Virus record (IMG/VR): IMGVR_UViG_3300017929_000012
Location: 1-37,373 of that record
Reading direction: 5' to 3' (one strand)
Length of the DNA: 37,373 nt
From: a virus
Part shown: positions 19,708 through 33,835 of the stretch, piece by piece
How positions within the stretch are numbered: the first letter of the stretch is position 1
How the letters are laid out: each line of letters opens with the position of its first letter
Notes under the pieces: model-generated
Seen by the model: only the letters and a program-made list of their open reading frames with translations
Told to the model about the DNA's origin: nothing
Database searches by the model: none
Made by a program: the position numbers and the translations under genes

Positions 19708-22671
19708 CTACCCCATCAAATCAGCAAACGGATCAATGGATTCAGGCTCTTGCACAGCCTGTGCTTGTTCAACTTGAAAAGCCGTCCGTGGGTTATCGTC
19801 AGCCGCCATATTACTACTCAAATACGAATATTTTCCAGTACAGTAAACCAAATCCGAAAGCTCAGCCTCTCTCTGGTGGGCGGCATAATCTACGTTGGTT
19901 ACTTCTAACCTACTACCCATATCCGCATACGCGCTAAACTGACTAACCAGTAATGACAATGCATCCACTATGTCATCATGAACGTCATCGCTAGTGCCGG
20001 TAAACTGCTCCATCTCGTTATAGATTTCTTCCAACCCTTCGCAGGATTTAGAAAAATATAGTCGCTCATCCCCCAACAAACGAAGCACTGGTTTTGCTTT
20101 CAGTTGCTTTGATTTCGCCTTAGTACCTAACCCAAGCGACACGAACTCAACAGGAATGGAAATCTGTAGCTTCTGCATTTCCCGTCGCAACTCGGGACTA
20201 ATCCACTTCACGCCCACAGAGTTTTCGATACATATCCTCTTAGGCTTCCACTTCAAACCAATAGCCGCGATCACAGACGGCAACTCATACTCATTAAACC
20301 GTCCCCTGACCATATTCAAGATGTAAAACCTACCCCCATAAATCAGGGCAGTAATAATCACAGTGTAATCTGCCCATGACTTCAAAGAATACGCAGCATC
20401 TACTACCGATACAATCACTCCCTGTTGAGGAAGTTGTATCTGTGGAATTGTACGGCGCATCAAAAGTTCACGTGGAAACTTTATCTTATGCACCTGACGC
20501 GGATCATTGAGATACTTGATTGGAAAAACATCGGGGTCTTGTTCCTTCAAACCCATCAATGTATCATATGACAGAAGTTCAGGAAACCAAATAACCCAAT
20601 CACTTGCTACTGTCTCTTCCTCAATCTTACCTAGTCGTTTGGCTTCATCTGTGAGCCAAAGCGCAGCACGAAGGTGTACCTTTGCCAAAACCGCACTATC
20701 AAATTGCCCGCTGTCAATAGAACCACGTATGTTGCCTTGCAAACCATGTCTTTCTGCACTTGAAATCTCTTTGGAAATCATCTGGCCGTAATAATCGTGC
20801 TCATCATACCACGTACCAATAACATCCAGAAAACCATACGGATGCATTAGAGCTTTATTGATGCCTATTTGCCTGTTAACTTTTGCAAGTCGATCAAGGG
20901 TCAAACTGTTTTCGTTTGTAACCACGTCATCCAACTTCATCACACAGTTATGTGTAACTGCACCAACTATGCAAATTGTTTCGTCCTCTTCTATCTGAAC
21001 AGAAATAACAGAACCCACACCAACACGGTCTACACTTTCAACAATAGATGTGTCGCTTCCGTTTCTTGGGTTAGTTGGTTTTCCTTCATATAGTCCTACA
21101 TTTCCCCATACACGCAAAGTATGATTCTCTTTAACGGCCACGCTGCAAGACTGTTGCAAACCGAGTTTTTGCTTTATCATTAAAGCACCGGCAGCTATTT
21201 CATCTGATATGGTTGTCAGGCTACCACGGTCATCTCCATCACCAGACCACATCCCACGAACAAGGGCCATCAATAATTCCCTTGGAGAATTTATTAACCA
21301 TGCCGGTATATTTTTCCTGCATGGCCCAACATACATTGACCGAAAAACATCAGTAAAAACTTTTGGTGCCTTTCGTATATAAAGAACAATCCCTCTATCA
21401 CAAACCTGCTTTATTCTATAACTATCTGCTCCATATGCAACAAAAAGTTTTCCTAAATTTTCAAAAACCTCAGTTTCATCGATATTGCCTGAAAATTGAA
21501 CCTGATTATTACGAATAGAACCTTCTGCAATAAACCAACCAAACATATTATAAACAGATTCTAACTGCGGTATAGGGGATGAGGGAGATTCATTTACAAC
21601 AGGTCTCATAATTTTTGTTCCAATTACTAGATTTTCAGCATCTTCCCAACCCTGGTCTGTCAAAAACGGGTGGTCAACCGAACAAGTAACCGGGAACGCT
21701 CCAATCTTCTTAAACGTGATTGTTACTCTATCTGATAATCTTTCTTTTAATGCAACAACCCTCCTGTACCTTCCTTTATGAGTAAGAACTTTGTCTCCAA
21801 TTTGAAAGTTCTTAACTTGCTTTACACCATCCTCGGTATAGACCCAAGTATCTGGAGAAAGACAATAGTGCGCACCAGACAAAGCTTGTTCAATAGATGC
21901 CGACCGTACTGACGGTTCCCTTATCTCACCAGCAGCAGCGGTTTGAAACTCTGTTTGAATACCTTCACCGGGAGGAATACAGTGTTCAGGAAACAAAACT
22001 TGAAAAATACTGGTCTCTTTATCTCCCGTAACGCGGTCCAAAACCTTACATGGCCTATAAATAGGCTTTTTTGTGGTTTCGTCTATGCTCCCGCTATCTT
22101 CCATCATAAAGTGCGCTCTAAGCTCCGAAATAAAATCAGTAGCGAGCTTGAACACTCCGGTCATAATGGCTATAGTTATCTCTGGATAGCAAACAATCCA
22201 CTGTACACAATCAGCAATGTCAATAGAACTCTTAAATCCACCACGAGGAACCAAAAGCAAGCGACTTTTCAGGTCACCGTAACCATCTGCAAACGCACGA
22301 AACGTAGGAAGAGTGGGGTCTTTCTGCACAAAAAAACTATTGCATATATACTCATGTGCGCCTAACGTAACCTGACCGTATATAACCAACAACTTGCACA
22401 TGAAATATAAATTAGTCTGCGCCAAAAAGCGCAGTCTCATCATTTCCCCGGTCGCATTAACCTGTTCCGCATGGTCACCAGATTCAGAAAGAAATTTATG
22501 CCAACTATCAAAAACTGCACACTGTTGTTCGTCTGATAACCTCTGGAAACTACGAACAGAAAGCTGCATGAATTCGCCGTCAGGTTCATTATCGTCATGA
22601 AGCCGATAATACTGATAGTGTTCATTCGCACGACACTCTGCCGCTACCCGCCTAAGCTCCTCCAAGTTCAT
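19708..22671 (-). CDS. terL: Terminase large subunit with in-frame intein
   Basis: The 987-residue precursor contains a 306-residue intein (residues 270-575), leaving a 681-residue terminase. The ATPase domain has a variant Walker A LLVPRGGFKSS (about 139-149), ATP-coupling region downstream, and Walker B CVMKLDDVV (576-584), which begins at the intein's C-extein junction. The RNase H-like nuclease shows VVDAAYS...ADYTV (D758), RICIENSVGVKW (E816) and HDDIVDALSL (D899/D900). Terminase cuts concatemers and drives DNA through the portal, encoded 9 nt downstream. AGGA lies 8 nt before the ATG at 22671. The C-terminus ends EPESIDPFADLMG. No small terminase subunit was recognised nearby. Confidence 0.95.
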   Translation of the reverse strand: MNLEELRRVAAECRANEHYQYYRLHDDNEPDGEFMQLSVRSFQRLSDEQQCAVFDSWHKFLSESGDHAEQVNATGEMMRLRFLAQTNLYFMCKLLVIYGQVTLGAHEYICNSFFVQKDPTLPTFRAFADGYGDLKSRLLLVPRGGFKSSIDIADCVQWIVCYPEITIAIMTGVFKLATDFISELRAHFMMEDSGSIDETTKKPIYRPCKVLDRVTGDKETSIFQVLFPEHCIPPGEGIQTEFQTAAAGEIREPSVRSASIEQALSGAHYCLSPDTWVYTEDGVKQVKNFQIGDKVLTHKGRYRRVVALKERLSDRVTITFKKIGAFPVTCSVDHPFLTDQGWEDAENLVIGTKIMRPVVNESPSSPIPQLESVYNMFGWFIAEGSIRNNQVQFSGNIDETEVFENLGKLFVAYGADSYRIKQVCDRGIVLYIRKAPKVFTDVFRSMYVGPCRKNIPAWLINSPRELLMALVRGMWSGDGDDRGSLTTISDEIAAGALMIKQKLGLQQSCSVAVKENHTLRVWGNVGLYEGKPTNPRNGSDTSIVESVDRVGVGSVISVQIEEDETICIVGAVTHNCVMKLDDVVTNENSLTLDRLAKVNRQIGINKALMHPYGFLDVIGTWYDEHDYYGQMISKEISSAERHGLQGNIRGSIDSGQFDSAVLAKVHLRAALWLTDEAKRLGKIEEETVASDWVIWFPELLSYDTLMGLKEQDPDVFPIKYLNDPRQVHKIKFPRELLMRRTIPQIQLPQQGVIVSVVDAAYSLKSWADYTVIITALIYGGRFYILNMVRGRFNEYELPSVIAAIGLKWKPKRICIENSVGVKWISPELRREMQKLQISIPVEFVSLGLGTKAKSKQLKAKPVLRLLGDERLYFSKSCEGLEEIYNEMEQFTGTSDDVHDDIVDALSLLVSQFSAYADMGSRLEVTNVDYAAHQREAELSDLVYCTGKYSYLSSNMAADDNPRTAFQVEQAQAVQEPESIDPFADLMG
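20947..21864 (-). mobile_element. Intein with LAGLIDADG homing endonuclease inside TerL
   Basis: Codons 270-575 of the precursor. The splice junctions are GAHY/C at the N side and HN/C at the C side. Hint blocks are visible: block A CLSPDTWVYTEDGVKQVKNF, block B PVTCSVDHPFLT (here S-V-D-H replaces the usual TxxH), and C-terminal blocks VISVQIEEDETICIV then GAVTHN followed by Cys+1. The two LAGLIDADG-type helices are GWFIAEGS (378-385) and LVRGMWSGDG (470-479), each with its acidic residue (E383, D478), so the endonuclease looks intact. Cys1, His-Asn and Cys+1 are all present, so splicing should be active. Insertion occurs seconds before Walker B, a conserved site. Confidence 0.95.
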
Positions 22672-28405: not shown

Positions 28406-31087
28406 TTGGAAATCAAGCTTCTTAAAGCGGATGATGTAAAACCGCCAATGAATATTACCACAATCACAGATATTAAACAGCTTCCGCTTCTTGTGGATTT
28501 TTTCAATAACTCTGGTGGTGTGTTTGGGTGGGACATTGAGACAACTCCACTTAAAGATTTCTTCTATCGTCGCACTCGAACCGTTCAGTTTGGAAATCGA
28601 GAAAAACAATTTGTTGTCGATCTTCTGGCACTATGCGACGGTGATCCTGATTTGCTCTTTGAGGCTCAAGGGAATTATGGCGCGAATCTCTACAAAGCGC
28701 CAAAACTCAAACTCTTTATGGACACCATTGCTCCGGTGCTTTGCGCTGCTGACTGTACAAAGGTTGGTGTGATGCTGAGTTTTGAGTACGAAAATTTTTA
28801 CTGGCAATTCGGCCTTCGTACATGTGGATTCTTTGATTGCTCACTTGTAGAGAAAGTAATTTACGCCGGACTGCACTCATTGAAGCACTATGAGTTTTAT
28901 TCCATGGAGGCCATGACTCAACGCTATTTCGCATTCCAGATTGACAAGGGTTTGCAAACATCATTCAACCTGTCCGACCCACTCAGTGAAGACCAAATCA
29001 AATATGCAGCCCTTGATAGCCGCTTGCCGCTGGCCCTTCGTGATGCACAAATGCTTGTTCTTAAGGGCCGTACAGTAAAAGACTTGCTCGTGAAAGGAAA
29101 CCCATCGGCTGCGATTCTTGCTAGATTAAACCCCCTTGTGCTTGGTGATAACCTCGTGGAGATTGCACAAATTGAAAATGATGCCATTGGCGCATTTCAA
29201 GACATGCACATTCACGGGGAGCGCATCAACTGTGAGAAGTGGCTTGCTCGATGCACCAAGCTTGAGGAAGAATTCAATAATCTGATTTTCAACGTGCTTG
29301 ATCCTATATTTATACCAATTGTCGGGAACAAGAACGATCTCATAACCGATGAATCCATTGAAACAGCAACACAGGAATGGAAGGCCCTTAACATAGTAAC
29401 CGATGAGGAATTAATTCTAAAAAAGGATGCAAGGGGAGCGCGAAAACAGGGTCTACATTCTGTGGCAAGAGATTTGGAAATTAAAGCAGGAGAATTAGAA
29501 ACCGCACGACGAACAAAAAAAGATGCCCTAAAAGAACAGACCAATGCACTAAAACGTACACGCACGGTACAATATGCTCTCTTGGAAAAATGTGAGGGCA
29601 ATGCGCTCATCAACTATGGTTCAAACAAACAACTGATAGCAGTAGTGCAACAGATACCGGGTCTCAAGAAAGTTAAGGATATGGAAGATGAGACCCTTGA
29701 AAAGTATTCTGTTTATGCTGTCATGCGTGCAATTAAAGAGTATCATCGAATTTCAAAAGAACTGAGTACTTATGGCAGACCGTGGGCAACACAATGGAAA
29801 ACACATGCGTGCAATGAAGAAGGATGGCTAAATCCCGGCGATGGTCGCTTGCACTCTGTGTTCAATCAACTTGAAGCTGAAACAGGACGGTCCAGTTCTG
29901 AAAAACCAAACGGCCAGAATGTACCACAAGATAAAGAAGTACGCAGTTGTTTTATTGCTGACCCACCAAATGAAAACATCCGGATTAGTGGCTGCTGTGA
30001 GGACGACACAAGCTTTGAACCAGACGCTTTTGGAGCAAATCAGTTTTATTGTTTGAAGTGTGGGCAGCCTTGTGAAACCCACGCCGAAGAGTATGTAATC
30101 ATTACTGCCGACATGTCTGGTGCCGAATTGCGCATTATTGCTGAATGCGCCGATGATCCGTTGTGGATCATGGCATTCGCTCGTGGTAAAGATATTCACT
30201 CAGTAGGAACCGAACTTCTGTATGAAGAGAAGTGGCCCGTTCTTGCGCTGCCTGACTGTGACTACTATAAACTTCATACATGTGAATCGGTGGCGAAGAA
30301 TCCGCTTTGTCAAGTTGGTGAACCACAATGCAAGAAATGTGAATGCCCTGAACACAAAGAACTTCGTGATGACAACAAGAGTACCAATTTTTTGTTAGCC
30401 TACGGGGGTGGTGCATATACGCTAGCGGCTCGCATCAAGAAGACAGTCCGTGAAGCTAAAATCCTTATGGCCCTTCACGAACAGAAGAATCCGCGCATTT
30501 GGGAATATTTGAAAAAATCTGGTAAAATGGCCGTAAAGATCAAACGCGCATTCGACATGTTCGGACGCCGTAGATTGTTCCCAGAACCGACCATGGAACT
30601 CGCTAAGGAACGGTTCATGGAGGATCACGAAGATAAGTTAGAAATTGAGCCGAATGAGGCCGATGAACGGATAGAAGATTTCGTTTCTACATATAAGCGA
30701 AAACCGACTGCCGAGGAAAAATGGTTCTTGACACATCGGCTGCCAACACAGAACCAAATAAAAAGTTCTTGGAAAGGAATGCACGAGTCCATCGAACGGC
30801 AAGGCAAGAACCACTGCATTCAGGGAACCAACGCGACAATTGCAAAACTGGCTATGGGGTCTGGATGCGATAAAGATGGTAAACCATACCTATGGGTGAC
30901 ATTGCCACAATATCGTGCCAAGTTGGTAAAGTTCGTTCACGATGAGTTGGTGATTCAAGCACCAAAGCAATATGCTCAGATTGTGGTAGAATTGGTGGGA
31001 GACGCTTTTAAACGATCGGCGTCCACAAAGATGAAGAAGGTGGTCATGGAGTTTGATGCCCACGTTGCGGAGTATTGGAAGAAATGA
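28406..31087 (+). CDS. DNA polymerase, family A, with 3'-5' exonuclease
   Basis: An 893-residue protein with a TTG start at 28406 (GAGGG 7 nt upstream). The exonuclease has GWDIETTP (D43, E45) and YAALD (Y200, D204). Polymerase motif A is ITADMSGAELRII (about 566-578), motif B KSTNFLLAYGGGAYTL (about 658-673), and motif C KFVHDELVI (H845-D846-E847). NHCIQGTNATIAKLAMGSG supports the assignment. A charged helical insertion lies about 330-395, and two Cys-rich stretches flank motif A: C530, C531, C549, C552, C556 and, after it, C618, C626, C635, C642, C645, C647, H650. The latter resembles the CxxP-H insertion seen in several phage polymerases. It synthesises phage DNA. Neighbours are early genes. 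Confidence 0.95.
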   Translation: MEIKLLKADDVKPPMNITTITDIKQLPLLVDFFNNSGGVFGWDIETTPLKDFFYRRTRTVQFGNREKQFVVDLLALCDGDPDLLFEAQGNYGANLYKAPKLKLFMDTIAPVLCAADCTKVGVMLSFEYENFYWQFGLRTCGFFDCSLVEKVIYAGLHSLKHYEFYSMEAMTQRYFAFQIDKGLQTSFNLSDPLSEDQIKYAALDSRLPLALRDAQMLVLKGRTVKDLLVKGNPSAAILARLNPLVLGDNLVEIAQIENDAIGAFQDMHIHGERINCEKWLARCTKLEEEFNNLIFNVLDPIFIPIVGNKNDLITDESIETATQEWKALNIVTDEELILKKDARGARKQGLHSVARDLEIKAGELETARRTKKDALKEQTNALKRTRTVQYALLEKCEGNALINYGSNKQLIAVVQQIPGLKKVKDMEDETLEKYSVYAVMRAIKEYHRISKELSTYGRPWATQWKTHACNEEGWLNPGDGRLHSVFNQLEAETGRSSSEKPNGQNVPQDKEVRSCFIADPPNENIRISGCCEDDTSFEPDAFGANQFYCLKCGQPCETHAEEYVIITADMSGAELRIIAECADDPLWIMAFARGKDIHSVGTELLYEEKWPVLALPDCDYYKLHTCESVAKNPLCQVGEPQCKKCECPEHKELRDDNKSTNFLLAYGGGAYTLAARIKKTVREAKILMALHEQKNPRIWEYLKKSGKMAVKIKRAFDMFGRRRLFPEPTMELAKERFMEDHEDKLEIEPNEADERIEDFVSTYKRKPTAEEKWFLTHRLPTQNQIKSSWKGMHESIERQGKNHCIQGTNATIAKLAMGSGCDKDGKPYLWVTLPQYRAKLVKFVHDELVIQAPKQYAQIVVELVGDAFKRSASTKMKKVVMEFDAHVAEYWKK

Positions 31088-31497
31088 AAAAACTTATATT
31101 GAAACGCCGAACCATTGAAGTAGTTCCATACAACCACGATGTTACCGTAATCTTAACTACTGACATTAAACGTGCAGTATTAAAACTTAAGGGTGAACTT
31201 GGTGACGATATAATAACCCGCATAAAACCCAACATGCACGCCCTGACAGTCTTTTCAGATGGCAACTCTAATATATTTATATTCCTAGAAATGAAGCCGG
31301 ATGTTGGCACCCTTGTGCATGAAGTTTATCATGCAGTGGATTTCATTTTACGTGATGCGGGGGTCAAAAATGATCCACACGTCAACGATGAAACGTGGGC
31401 TTACCATTTGGGCGACTTGACAAGACAAGTGGTAAAGTTTTATCATCACGCTAACAGCAAGGGAAAGTTCAGTACCAACAATCGGGCTAAGACTTGA
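31084..31497 (+). CDS. Small zincin-like protein (HExxH)
   Basis: ATG 31084 overlaps the polymerase TGA (ATGA), giving 137 residues, MKKLILKRRTIEVVPYNHDV. The core DVGTLVHEVYHAVDFILRDA has the HExxH zinc signature, followed by NDETWAYHLGDLTRQVVKFY, with a Glu that could be the third ligand. Small phage proteins of this shape (HExxH followed by E-x-W-A) are common and mostly uncharacterised. It may be a minimal metallopeptidase or only a structural Zn protein. Its stop codon is embedded in the -35 box of the next promoter. Confidence 0.65.
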   Translation: MKKLILKRRTIEVVPYNHDVTVILTTDIKRAVLKLKGELGDDIITRIKPNMHALTVFSDGNSNIFIFLEMKPDVGTLVHEVYHAVDFILRDAGVKNDPHVNDETWAYHLGDLTRQVVKFYHHANSKGKFSTNNRAKT

Positions 31498-31522
31498 CAA
31501 ACGGAAAAAAGTGTGCTATAGT
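31494..31522 (+). promoter_or_regulatory. Near-consensus sigma70 promoter
   Basis: TTGACA (31494-31499), a 17-nt spacer ending GTGTGC, and TATAGT (31517-31522). This is the best promoter in the window. The predicted start near 31529 is about 3 nt before the closed RNA element at 31532, so the transcript begins almost at the base of that stem. The -35 overlaps the preceding gene's stop codon. Confidence 0.8.
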
Positions 31523-31531
31523 CATAAAAGA

Positions 31532-31622
31532 ATGCGGCGAAGGTGAGAAAAGAGCGGGCCGGTGGTCCGGGGAGCTTGGGGAACTGCTTACGGCACCGGT
31601 CCAAAATCACGGTTCGCCGCAT
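31532..31622 (+). ncRNA. Structured RNA element closed by a 10-bp stem
   Basis: ATGCGGCGAA (31532-31541) pairs perfectly with TTCGCCGCAT (31613-31622). Inside, GTGA/TCAC continue the stem, and GGGCCGGTG (31556-31564) pairs with CACCGGTCC (31594-31602) as 9 bp with one G.U; the inner loop has further AGC/GCT pairing. The whole 91-nt region folds on itself immediately downstream of a strong promoter. It does not match a riboswitch or known phage RNA I can name. It may be a small RNA or a 5' element stabilising the transcript. The 73-codon ORF begins 31 nt downstream. Confidence 0.6.
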
Positions 31623-31653
31623 AAGGCGTAGAAAAATTATATGGAGGAATCAA

Positions 31654-31875
31654 ATGACACTGGTATCTGATGTTGAAGCGGTGGCAAAGAAAATTGAAAC
31701 AAACGTGATTGCAGACGCGAAGGCAGTTGAAGCCAAGTTGGCTGCTGCTCTTGCAAATGAGGCAACAAAGGCTAAGGCCCTTATCCTTGTAGAGGTTCAG
31801 AAGGCCAGTGTAAGCGCACAGACTTTAGCAGAGACGCTTAAGGCCCTGTTTCTTGCTGAGCTTTCCAAGCTGTAG
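31654..31875 (+). CDS. Small Ala/Lys-rich helical protein, 73 residues
   Basis: MTLVSDVEAVAKKIETNVIA starts after GGAGGAATCAA, a good Shine-Dalgarno. The product is almost entirely helix-forming Ala, Lys, Glu and Val with heptad-like spacing (ADAKAVEAKLAAALANEATK, LAETLKALFLAELSKL), so a coiled coil is likely. Longer reading upstream enters the structured RNA and is rejected. First cistron after the strong promoter; function unknown. Confidence 0.6.
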   Translation: MTLVSDVEAVAKKIETNVIADAKAVEAKLAAALANEATKAKALILVEVQKASVSAQTLAETLKALFLAELSKL

Positions 31876-32020
31876 TAGTTTGGGTGTACTCGCTGTTTAA
31901 TAGCGGAGACAAAACAACGTGCCCTGTGCGGGCCAGTGTGGCTGATACCAACGTTGACAAATCGCTATCTCTGTCAGGGGACACCGGTGTAATTCGAATT
32001 CATCGGCGGCGAGTCGCAGC
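31876..32020 (+). other. Non-coding region, first part (no clear gene)
   Basis: Together with the two features below this forms a 313-nt gap without a gene. I see TGACA/TGTCA arms around 31955-31976 and the pair GTCGC-A-GCGAC just before the long hairpin. No Shine-Dalgarno plus start of notable length is present on either strand. It is probably transcribed from the 31494 promoter. Confidence 0.3.
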
Positions 32021-32069
32021 GACCGTGGGATACGTCTAGTCGTTTCGCGTCTAGGCGTGTCTCACGGTC
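32021..32069 (+). ncRNA. 19-bp near-perfect hairpin
   Basis: GACCGTGGGATACGTCTAG (32021-32039) pairs with CTAGGCGTGTCTCACGGTC (32051-32069): 19 consecutive pairs, three of them G.U in RNA, with an 11-nt loop. TCTAG occurs three times (32035, 32050, 32069). AGGTTTTAAGG follows, so a weak terminator is possible, but the T run is short and displaced. A long stem like this is also a classical RNase III substrate; either role would cut or shape the transcript ahead of the 32189 gene. Confidence 0.55.
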
Positions 32070-32112
32070 TAGGTTTTAAGGAGAGTTGTAATATATTTTT
32101 ATAGAAAATCCG

Positions 32113-32153
32113 CTTTTTCCCTTTATATTACTACGTAATATAAAGGGAAAAAG
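32113..32153. repeat. Perfect 19-bp inverted repeat, 3-nt loop
   Basis: CTTTTTCCCTTTATATTAC (32113-32131) and GTAATATAAAGGGAAAAAG (32135-32153) form a perfect 19-bp palindrome with loop TAC. As RNA it is a strong AU-rich hairpin flanked by A-rich sequence; there is no T tract after it. As DNA it could be a binding site. It ends 36 nt before the next ATG and may block readthrough or protect the mRNA. Confidence 0.6.
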
Positions 32154-32188
32154 TAAAAAGAAAGCGAAAGTGGGAAGAGGAGGCGAAC

Positions 32189-32380
32189 ATGGTGAAACTC
32201 TACGTGATACAACTTAAGAAATGGAAACGATGGAACAAAACCATCTGGACCCACGGCAGACATGAATATGGTGGACCGGTTTCTTTACGGTCCGCCATGA
32301 AAGCCTTGACGAAAGCACAAAAAGCATTTCCAAAAAGTGAATATCGAATTGCTGTGTATCGTCCAAGGAAAAAGAAGTGA
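32189..32380 (+). CDS. Small basic protein, 63 residues
   Basis: MVKLYVIQLKKWKRWNKTIW follows AGAGGAGGCGAAC, a strong Shine-Dalgarno. It is highly basic (Lys/Arg about one quarter) with SLRSAMKALTKAQKAFPKSE and ends RPRKKK. Nucleic-acid binding is plausible from charge; no family is recognised. It lies just upstream of structured RNA and tRNA-type genes. Confidence 0.55.
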   Translation: MVKLYVIQLKKWKRWNKTIWTHGRHEYGGPVSLRSAMKALTKAQKAFPKSEYRIAVYRPRKKK

Positions 32381-32548
32381 AAGCGGGCTTTTCCACCGCA
32401 ACCGGGAGAACCTAGCGGGGCTTAATGGTCCGGTCATGCAAAGGATGCACCGTTACCTGACCACGTGGAGTAACGGGATAGGGTACGCACAGTGTTGCAC
32501 TGTGCGTGACCCGCATAGGCGGTAAAAATCCGCCCGATGGAAAACCAA
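32381..32548 (+). ncRNA. Dense cluster of stem-loops upstream of the tRNA-type genes
   Basis: Within 168 nt: GCGG-9-CCGC (32383-32399); CCGTTAC-13-GTAACGG (32450-32476); CGCACAGTG-TTG-CACTGTGCG (32486-32506) extended by GGGT/ACCC across an A/TG internal loop (32481-32512); and GGCGG-7-CCGCC (32518-32534). Nothing codes for protein. Such spacing suggests one folded RNA or a set of processing hairpins preceding the tRNA gene at 32549. It could not be matched to a named RNA family by eye. Confidence 0.5.
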
Positions 32549-32650
32549 GAGGGTGTAGCTCAGATGGTGAGAGCACCCGACATGTTTCAGCCTTAAGGTA
32601 GACCAAAGGCACGTGCCGGGAGGCCGCAGGTTCGATTCCTGTCACCCCTT
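32549..32650 (+). tRNA. Aberrant tRNA-like gene with expanded anticodon loop (possible pseudogene)
   Basis: A D arm (GCTC-AGATGGTGA-GAGC), T arm (GCAGG-TTCGATT-CCTGT) and acceptor strands (GAGGGTG/CACCCCT, with an A-C mismatch at 2-71 and a G.U at 1-72) are clear. The anticodon arm is not standard: CCCG(A) and (C)CGGG enclose about 35 nt instead of 7. In that loop GCCTT/AAGGC and CATG/CGTG can pair, giving a long branched arm. No normal anticodon loop can be read. It has no encoded CCA. It is either a decayed tRNA, one with an insert, or a tRNA mimic. The antisense tRNA-type reading frame over it is spurious. Confidence 0.5.
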
Positions 32651-32775
32651 GGATTTTGATGCCGAGAGACACTTAGTGTAGCGGCATCGGGAAACGTCTC
32701 TTGTTTGACTAGGGGAGACCATGGGCGACGTTTTGGAGAGAGTATCTTGGGTTTTGGCCGTCCACCAAAAGTTTT
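32651..32775 (+). other. Hairpins between the two tRNA-type genes
   Basis: GATGCCG/CGGCATC (32658-32664, 32682-32688) encloses ACAC-TTA-GTGT; AACGTC/GACGTT (32693-32698, 32727-32732) encloses GTCTC/GAGAC; and TTTTGG-7-CCAAAA (32752-32770) is followed by GTTTT just before the tRNA at 32776. These look like processing or partial termination elements. No gene. Confidence 0.4.
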
Positions 32776-32850
32776 CGCGGGGTAGCTCAGTCCGGTAAGA
32801 GCGAAAGATTCATAATCTTTAGGCCACAGGTTCAAATCCTGTCCCCGCAA
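32776..32850 (+). tRNA. tRNA-CAU with initiator-type C1-A72 mismatch
   Basis: A complete cloverleaf: acceptor CGCGGGG/CCCCGCA with C1 opposite A72 unpaired, D arm GCTC...GAGC, anticodon arm AAAGA-TTCATAA-TCTTT with anticodon CAU, variable AGGCC, T arm ACAGG-TTCAAAT-CCTGT, discriminator A73. The C1-A72 mismatch and A73 are hallmarks of bacterial initiator tRNA-fMet, but the three consecutive G-C pairs of the initiator anticodon stem are replaced by A/T-rich pairs. CCA is not encoded. It could be an initiator-like tRNA, an elongator Met or a lysidine-type Ile tRNA. Confidence 0.9.
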
Positions 32851-32861
32851 CATTGGTTGCT

Positions 32862-33263
32862 ATGAACGAAAAACGTAGAGAGTATATGAAAATATATCAC
32901 CACGAGTGGTATATTAATACCATGGTGAAACGAAGAGAACAGTGGTTTGTAGAAAATGGCCCATGTGTGGATTGTGGTAGAAATATAAATCTTGAAGTTG
33001 ATCATATAGACCCATCCACCAAAATAAGTCACTGTGTTTGGAGTTGGTCAGAAAAGCGACGCAAAGAAGAATTAGAAAAATGTGTTGTACGCTGTAACGA
33101 ATGTCATAAAATAAAAACAGCATCGGAGATTAGGGCAAAACTTTCTCGTCCCCCTGTACACGGAACAAGTTCAGGGTATATACACCACAAGTGTCGTTGT
33201 CATTTATGCAAGGATTTCCATAAAAATTATAGACATTCCTACTATTTACAAAGTGGTAAATAG
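32862..33263 (+). CDS. HNH endonuclease next to the tRNA
   Basis: ATG 32862 gives 133 residues, beginning MNEKRREYMKIYHHEWYINT. The nuclease core is GPCVDCGRNINLEVDHIDPS, then CVVRCNECHKIKTASEIRAK; the C-terminus has VHGTSSGYIHHKCRCHLCKD, the short zinc-like tail common in this HNH family. No good Shine-Dalgarno is present, and the start is only 12 nt from the tRNA 3' end. tRNA-adjacent insertion is a known habit of homing elements. It overlaps nothing and is followed 6 nt later by the phosphoesterase gene. Confidence 0.85.
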   Translation: MNEKRREYMKIYHHEWYINTMVKRREQWFVENGPCVDCGRNINLEVDHIDPSTKISHCVWSWSEKRRKEELEKCVVRCNECHKIKTASEIRAKLSRPPVHGTSSGYIHHKCRCHLCKDFHKNYRHSYYLQSGK

Positions 33264-33268
33264 TTTTT

Positions 33269-33835
33269 ATGAATCAAACTCATTTCACGGCTGATGAGCA
33301 TATCGGTCACAAAAATATAATTATTTACTGCAACCGCCCCTTTGCGGACATTCGTGAGATGCGCGATGAGATGATCCGTCGCCATAACGAAGTTGTCTCG
33401 GATGGTGATATAGTATATCATATCGGTGATATGTTTTGGCGTTTCAACAAGACAAAGGAAGTTTTAGACTACCTCTATTCACTCAACGGCACTCACCGAT
33501 ATGTTCTCGGGAACCATGAGGAAGCCATTCGAGACCTTTTCAATAAATATCCAGACTGTGAATTCTTTGGTCCCCTATTTGAGCGCGTGTACTTAAATGG
33601 GGTGTCTACGGGAACGCCGGGCGGCATTGTGCTTGACCACTATGCCGGACGCGTGTGGCAGAACAGCAGTCACGGCTCGTGGCAATTATTTGGGCATAGT
33701 CACGCTGCACTACCTGACATTGGACTTTTACAAATGGATGTAGGAGTTGACGCCCACAACTTCTATCCTGTATCATTGGATCAAGTAAAAGCGATCATGG
33801 CAAAGAAAATGGAGAGCCAGAGTGAGCGACCCTGA
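33269..33835 (+). CDS. Calcineurin-like metallophosphoesterase
   Basis: A 188-residue protein with the metallophosphoesterase blocks in order: MNQTHFTADEHIGHKNIIIY (D-x-H, first metal ligands), VYHIGDMFWRF (GD), RYVLGNHEEA (GNHE), VLDHYAGR (His), and LFGHSHAALPD (GHSH). VGVDAHNFYPVSLDQ closes the family pattern. These enzymes hydrolyse phosphomono- or diesters using two metal ions; phage copies are thought to act on nucleotides, DNA ends or RNA. Its stop overlaps the next start by 14 nt. Assignment is confident at superfamily level. Confidence 0.9.
   Translation: MNQTHFTADEHIGHKNIIIYCNRPFADIREMRDEMIRRHNEVVSDGDIVYHIGDMFWRFNKTKEVLDYLYSLNGTHRYVLGNHEEAIRDLFNKYPDCEFFGPLFERVYLNGVSTGTPGGIVLDHYAGRVWQNSSHGSWQLFGHSHAALPDIGLLQMDVGVDAHNFYPVSLDQVKAIMAKKMESQSERP

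Follow-up and report, generated by a model that had tools for sequence, protein, structure and literature searches.

The window analyzed here is the whole 37,373-base record of a virus, a soil phage. Between a gp136 homologue and a phosphoesterase gene, it carries a promoter, two genes for small proteins, several predicted RNA structures, two tRNA-type sequences, and an HNH endonuclease gene, all on the + strand (Table 1). The promoter, which overlaps the 3′ end of the gp136 homologue, was called near-consensus in the initial annotation and is present as described; Tunturi_3 and many other relatives have a promoter of the same type where their gp136 homologue ends. Homology also bears out the two tiny proteins reported from this stretch. 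The 73-aa protein has homologues in four other phages of the group (L007, L002 [Tunturi_3 gp134], L018/L043, and L015), and for the 63-aa protein a homologue of 57% identity occurs in L175, an unrelated phage context, which argues against its ORF being an artefact. Because homology identifies both small ORFs as real, the locus mixes coding and noncoding sequence.

Over 14.7 kb, the window matches part of an 89,756-base IMG/VR contig (G001) at 99.99% identity. Judged by its DNA polymerase, the nearest cultured relative is Tunturiibacter phage Tunturi_3 (51% identity), whose host is a soil bacterium of the Acidobacteriota (PMC11924767). An alignment of four polymerases was used to gather the loci of relatives and yielded 58 loci in viral contigs; the same alignment revealed no closer relatives in the bacterial genome contigs searched. 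The 987-aa terminase large subunit of the window (19708-22671, − strand) shows a weak match to Hint (intein-type) domains that scores below the cut-off of Pfam.

Table 1. Genes, RNA features, and motif instances considered in this work
Feature	Position	Strand	Evidence
gp136 homologue, 140 aa; upstream boundary of the locus	31075..31497	+	phrog_1365
σ70-type promoter, TTGACA-17-TATAGT, extended −10	31494..31522	+	11/12 consensus matches
91-nt rod-like hairpin, 5′ leader of the 73-aa gene	31532..31622	+	MFE −45.3 kcal/mol, z −3.8
73-aa helical protein gene	31654..31875	+	RBS TGGAGG; homologues
Possible multi-branch fold, 137 nt, weak	31884..32020	+	z −0.75 alone
Long hairpin, 22 pairs, 3-nt loop; candidate RNase III site	32021..32069	+	
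Perfect 19-bp inverted repeat, 3-nt gap	32113..32153	+	27% GC
63-aa basic protein gene	32189..32380	+	RBS AGGAGG; homologue
168-nt structured stretch, several hairpins; candidate small RNA	32381..32548	+	z −2.9
tRNA-like element	32549..32650	+	RF00005, 44.4 bits (cut-off 29)
Spacer, 125 nt, two hairpins; weak candidate small RNA	32651..32775	+	z −1.8
tRNA-Met type gene, anticodon CAU	32776..32851	+	ARAGORN; RF00005, 70.1 bits
HNH endonuclease gene, directly 3′ of the tRNA	32853..33263	+	phrog_4234, E 6e-31
Phosphoesterase gene, downstream syntenic boundary	33269..33835	+	
Two-hairpin motif instances	L067:2046-2097; L014:12053-12112; L018:11504-11570; L059:11357-11410; L125 near 8289; L162 near 1441		

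RNA structure downstream of the promoter

The roughly 1.3 kb noted earlier as rich in structured RNA indeed tops the + strand of the window. In a scan with 100-nt windows, the most structured stretch lies at 31.5-33.3 kb, where the 26-window running mean of z falls to −1.97 (at 32001), compared with −0.31 (SD, 0.39) for the + strand; the mean z of the region is −1.31, versus −0.28 for the rest of the strand. The leader had been described as a 91-nt multi-stem element. Its stable fold was upheld but its architecture was not: with a 10-bp base, internal loops, and no branch, the element is one long interrupted hairpin, a single unbranched rod. The 73-aa ORF folded as RNA scores at chance level (z −0.2), and the 137-nt fold between this ORF and the first long hairpin is by itself no better than chance. 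A long hairpin and a perfect 19-bp inverted repeat, both reported initially, were found, the repeat forming the core of a second long hairpin of 21 pairs (32109-32157); across the whole 37-kb window, only three hairpins reach 17 pairs, and these are two of them. The inverted repeat was rejected as a + strand terminator because no U-run follows it. The 168-nt cluster of stems is likewise present.

The claim that most of the conserved-looking signal is RNA did not hold: relatives exist for both tRNA folds and for both proteins, with none for the other structures, and homology is limited to the position of the promoter, both small proteins, and the tRNA folds. Searches of the relatives' loci with nhmmer gave tRNA-type matches only and none for the other RNA elements, and covariance models built from the 91-nt element and from positions 32398-32548 of the 168-nt stretch each matched only themselves in 45 loci (0.70 Mb). 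Among the matches listed from elsewhere in the pieces of this phage that were searched, none convincingly showed an additional copy of, or an antisense match to, any of the elements. In eight relatives, the same interval minus its tRNA and tmRNA genes is barely more structured than the flanks. By these comparisons, the extra non-tRNA structure is apparently specific to the lineage of the window phage, which counts against the idea of a conserved system.

One large ornate RNA spanning the whole interval is unlikely because the 63-aa gene interrupts the interval and no Rfam family matches. The GOLLD and ROOL RNAs (PMC12286853) are comparable in being large, structured RNAs of phages that lie near tRNAs and whose function is unknown, but the noncoding stretches of the window measure ∼0.3 to 0.4 kb and are split by a real gene; the GOLLD and ROOL Rfam models had no match in the window.

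tRNA-type genes and the syntenic tmRNA position

Both tRNA-type genes of the initial annotation were recovered with the tRNA model. The downstream gene forms a cloverleaf with a 7-nt anticodon loop (anticodon CAT). The tRNA-like element upstream of it was not called when ARAGORN was run on the window; it resembles tRNA in its cloverleaf, with D and T arms intact, but departs from the family in two respects. The strands of its anticodon stem are 35 nt apart, and these 35 nt fold into a long structured arm that replaces the anticodon loop; its acceptor stem runs into the flanks (CCAAG/CTTGG), giving about ten pairs with one bulged A. The nearest covariance-model match of the element is a tRNA-Pro of L010 (38.9 bits).

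L010 also encodes a tRNA-Asn(GTT) with a 49-nt structured insertion in the anticodon loop, between U35 and U36 (L010:6053-6173, − strand). This gene sits where relatives carry theirs and was not detected by ARAGORN. Only this tRNA-Asn and the tRNA-like element of the window, which is also present in the G001 copy, exceed 95 nt among the tRNA matches listed; they are two rare RNAs of tRNA shape in which the decoding loop carries a structured insertion. In Tunturi_3, a tRNA-like element (L002:9558-9615) has only ∼4 nt at the expected anticodon loop.

In relatives, the interval from gp136/DNA polymerase to the phosphoesterase gene contains tRNAs and often a permuted tmRNA, which in L002 and L018 lies directly 3′ of the 73-aa-type gene. 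Permuted tmRNA is common across the phage group (for example, at L067:2128-2320 and L002:9213-9437): RF04321 scores above cut-off, anywhere in the record, in 24 of 35 related records. Known permuted tmRNA loci (RF04321; OM43 phage Melnitz, PMC9004378) are similar to the relatives' syntenic interval, with the tmRNA near a promoter; the interval of the window differs in having no tmRNA. The complete permuted tmRNA of the window phage instead lies ∼13 kb past the window end (G001:50627-50819) and has an open tag frame ending FAFSPVLATA. The main text of the Tunturi paper does not mention tmRNA. Since Tunturi_3 is cultured, the syntenic locus in its genome, which has a permuted tmRNA and an unusual tRNA-like element, is open to direct study. 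Between the lipoprotein and phosphoesterase genes of Tunturi_3, there are also 755 nt without annotated genes (L002:10712-11466), with a z of −2.0 when folded.

A putative processed transcript and competing explanations

An RNA-gene locus after the promoter is supported by the excess of structure, the tRNAs, and the tRNA and tmRNA genes that relatives carry in this interval. That the locus gives rise to a discrete set of small RNAs or a processing cascade, as first suggested, is plausible from sequence. Our best reading, which we regard as an even call, is that stable small RNAs may arise from a polycistronic tRNA-cluster transcript through cleavage by RNase III and tRNA-processing enzymes. 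The locus would be this phage's version of the tRNA/tmRNA locus that relatives carry between the DNA polymerase block and the phosphoesterase gene. One promoter would produce a single transcript with a stable hairpin leader, two small proteins, and tRNA-type genes at its end; host RNase III would cut the two long hairpins, and RNase P together with tRNA 3′-end enzymes would cut the tRNA and perhaps the tRNA-like element, so that the 168-nt stretch, possibly along with the 125-nt spacer, would persist as stable small RNAs. The tRNA-like element cannot decode and would serve either to mark a processing site or as a tRNA scaffold protecting the inserted hairpin.

This reading is favored by the highest structure in the window, z-scores of −3.8 and −2.9, the promoter conserved in position, the tRNAs and permuted tmRNA of relatives, the two tRNA matches, the ORF homologues, and two hairpins of >20 pairs. 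The non-tRNA elements without homologues, the barely structured interval of relatives, and the chance-level 137-nt fold argue against it. The closest described analogues of the proposed products would be RNAC and RNAD of T4, small non-tRNA RNAs of its tRNA region whose role is unknown (PMC3014915); those were reported as transcribed, whereas the window locus is known from sequence alone. The locus makes it possible to test whether phages akin to those infecting a little-studied bacterial phylum produce small RNAs beside tRNA and tmRNA genes.

A more specific proposal, which we consider unlikely, is that the tRNA-like element represents a naturally occurring small RNA built on a tRNA scaffold. 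It would be a phage tRNA, nearest to tRNA-Pro, in which a functional hairpin replaces the anticodon loop and which is released with the neighboring 168-nt RNA from one processed transcript. If so, the tRNA-Asn of L010 with its structured insertion would be a second case of a tRNA scaffold.

It is a realistic, if somewhat doubtful, possibility that the locus makes no stable small RNAs and combines ordinary mRNA leader and spacer structure with one tRNA and one decaying pseudo-tRNA. Phage tRNA genes are often gained and lost, the tRNA-like element has a mismatched acceptor stem and lacks a usable anticodon, and the missing homologues of the non-tRNA elements fit this explanation as well. However, the element keeps its D and T arms, and its inserted arm and flanks pair, unlike the outcome of random decay; the z-scores of the 91-nt and 168-nt elements and the long hairpins are also beyond chance.

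Splicing of the tRNA-like element into a decoding, intron-containing tRNA is improbable. The tRNA-Asn of L010, with its insertion exactly within the anticodon loop, offers a precedent, but no choice of 5′ and 3′ splice boundaries in the window element gives a 7-nt loop with U33, and Rfam shows no group I intron match in an insertion that is much too short for one.

A diverged or second permuted tmRNA is the least credible explanation and very improbable: relatives do carry tmRNA at this position, in L002 and L018 right after the 73-aa-type gene, but RF00023 and RF04321 match nothing in the window except a T arm, and a complete permuted tmRNA, open tag frame included, exists elsewhere in this phage. 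A functional tmRNA in the interval is already refuted, and decayed remains are possible at most. Because the real tmRNA of the phage lies elsewhere, a divergent tmRNA was rejected, and the cluster in the window therefore occupies a known RNA-gene position without being a tmRNA.

A two-hairpin motif in the phage group

We also observed an unnamed RNA motif of two hairpins, in which a hairpin of variable sequence is followed by TGGTGGAGGGC, a short loop, and GCCCC. It is found in leaders of the phage group, upstream of the tmRNA of the window phage, and in other viral contigs, sometimes immediately before terminators. The motif is absent from the locus studied here, and membership of the 91-nt leader is unsupported. 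An Rfam search with one instance gave no meaningful family match. In 22 instances, the five-pair first helix is canonical at every one of a total of 110 pairs, with as many as five pair types at a given position, compared with a mean of 63 canonical pairs for shuffled arms; these instances were selected for having the first helix, and the count is biased accordingly. In a less biased comparison, a perfect helix of at least five pairs precedes 18 of 89 pattern matches versus 7 of 263 control positions.
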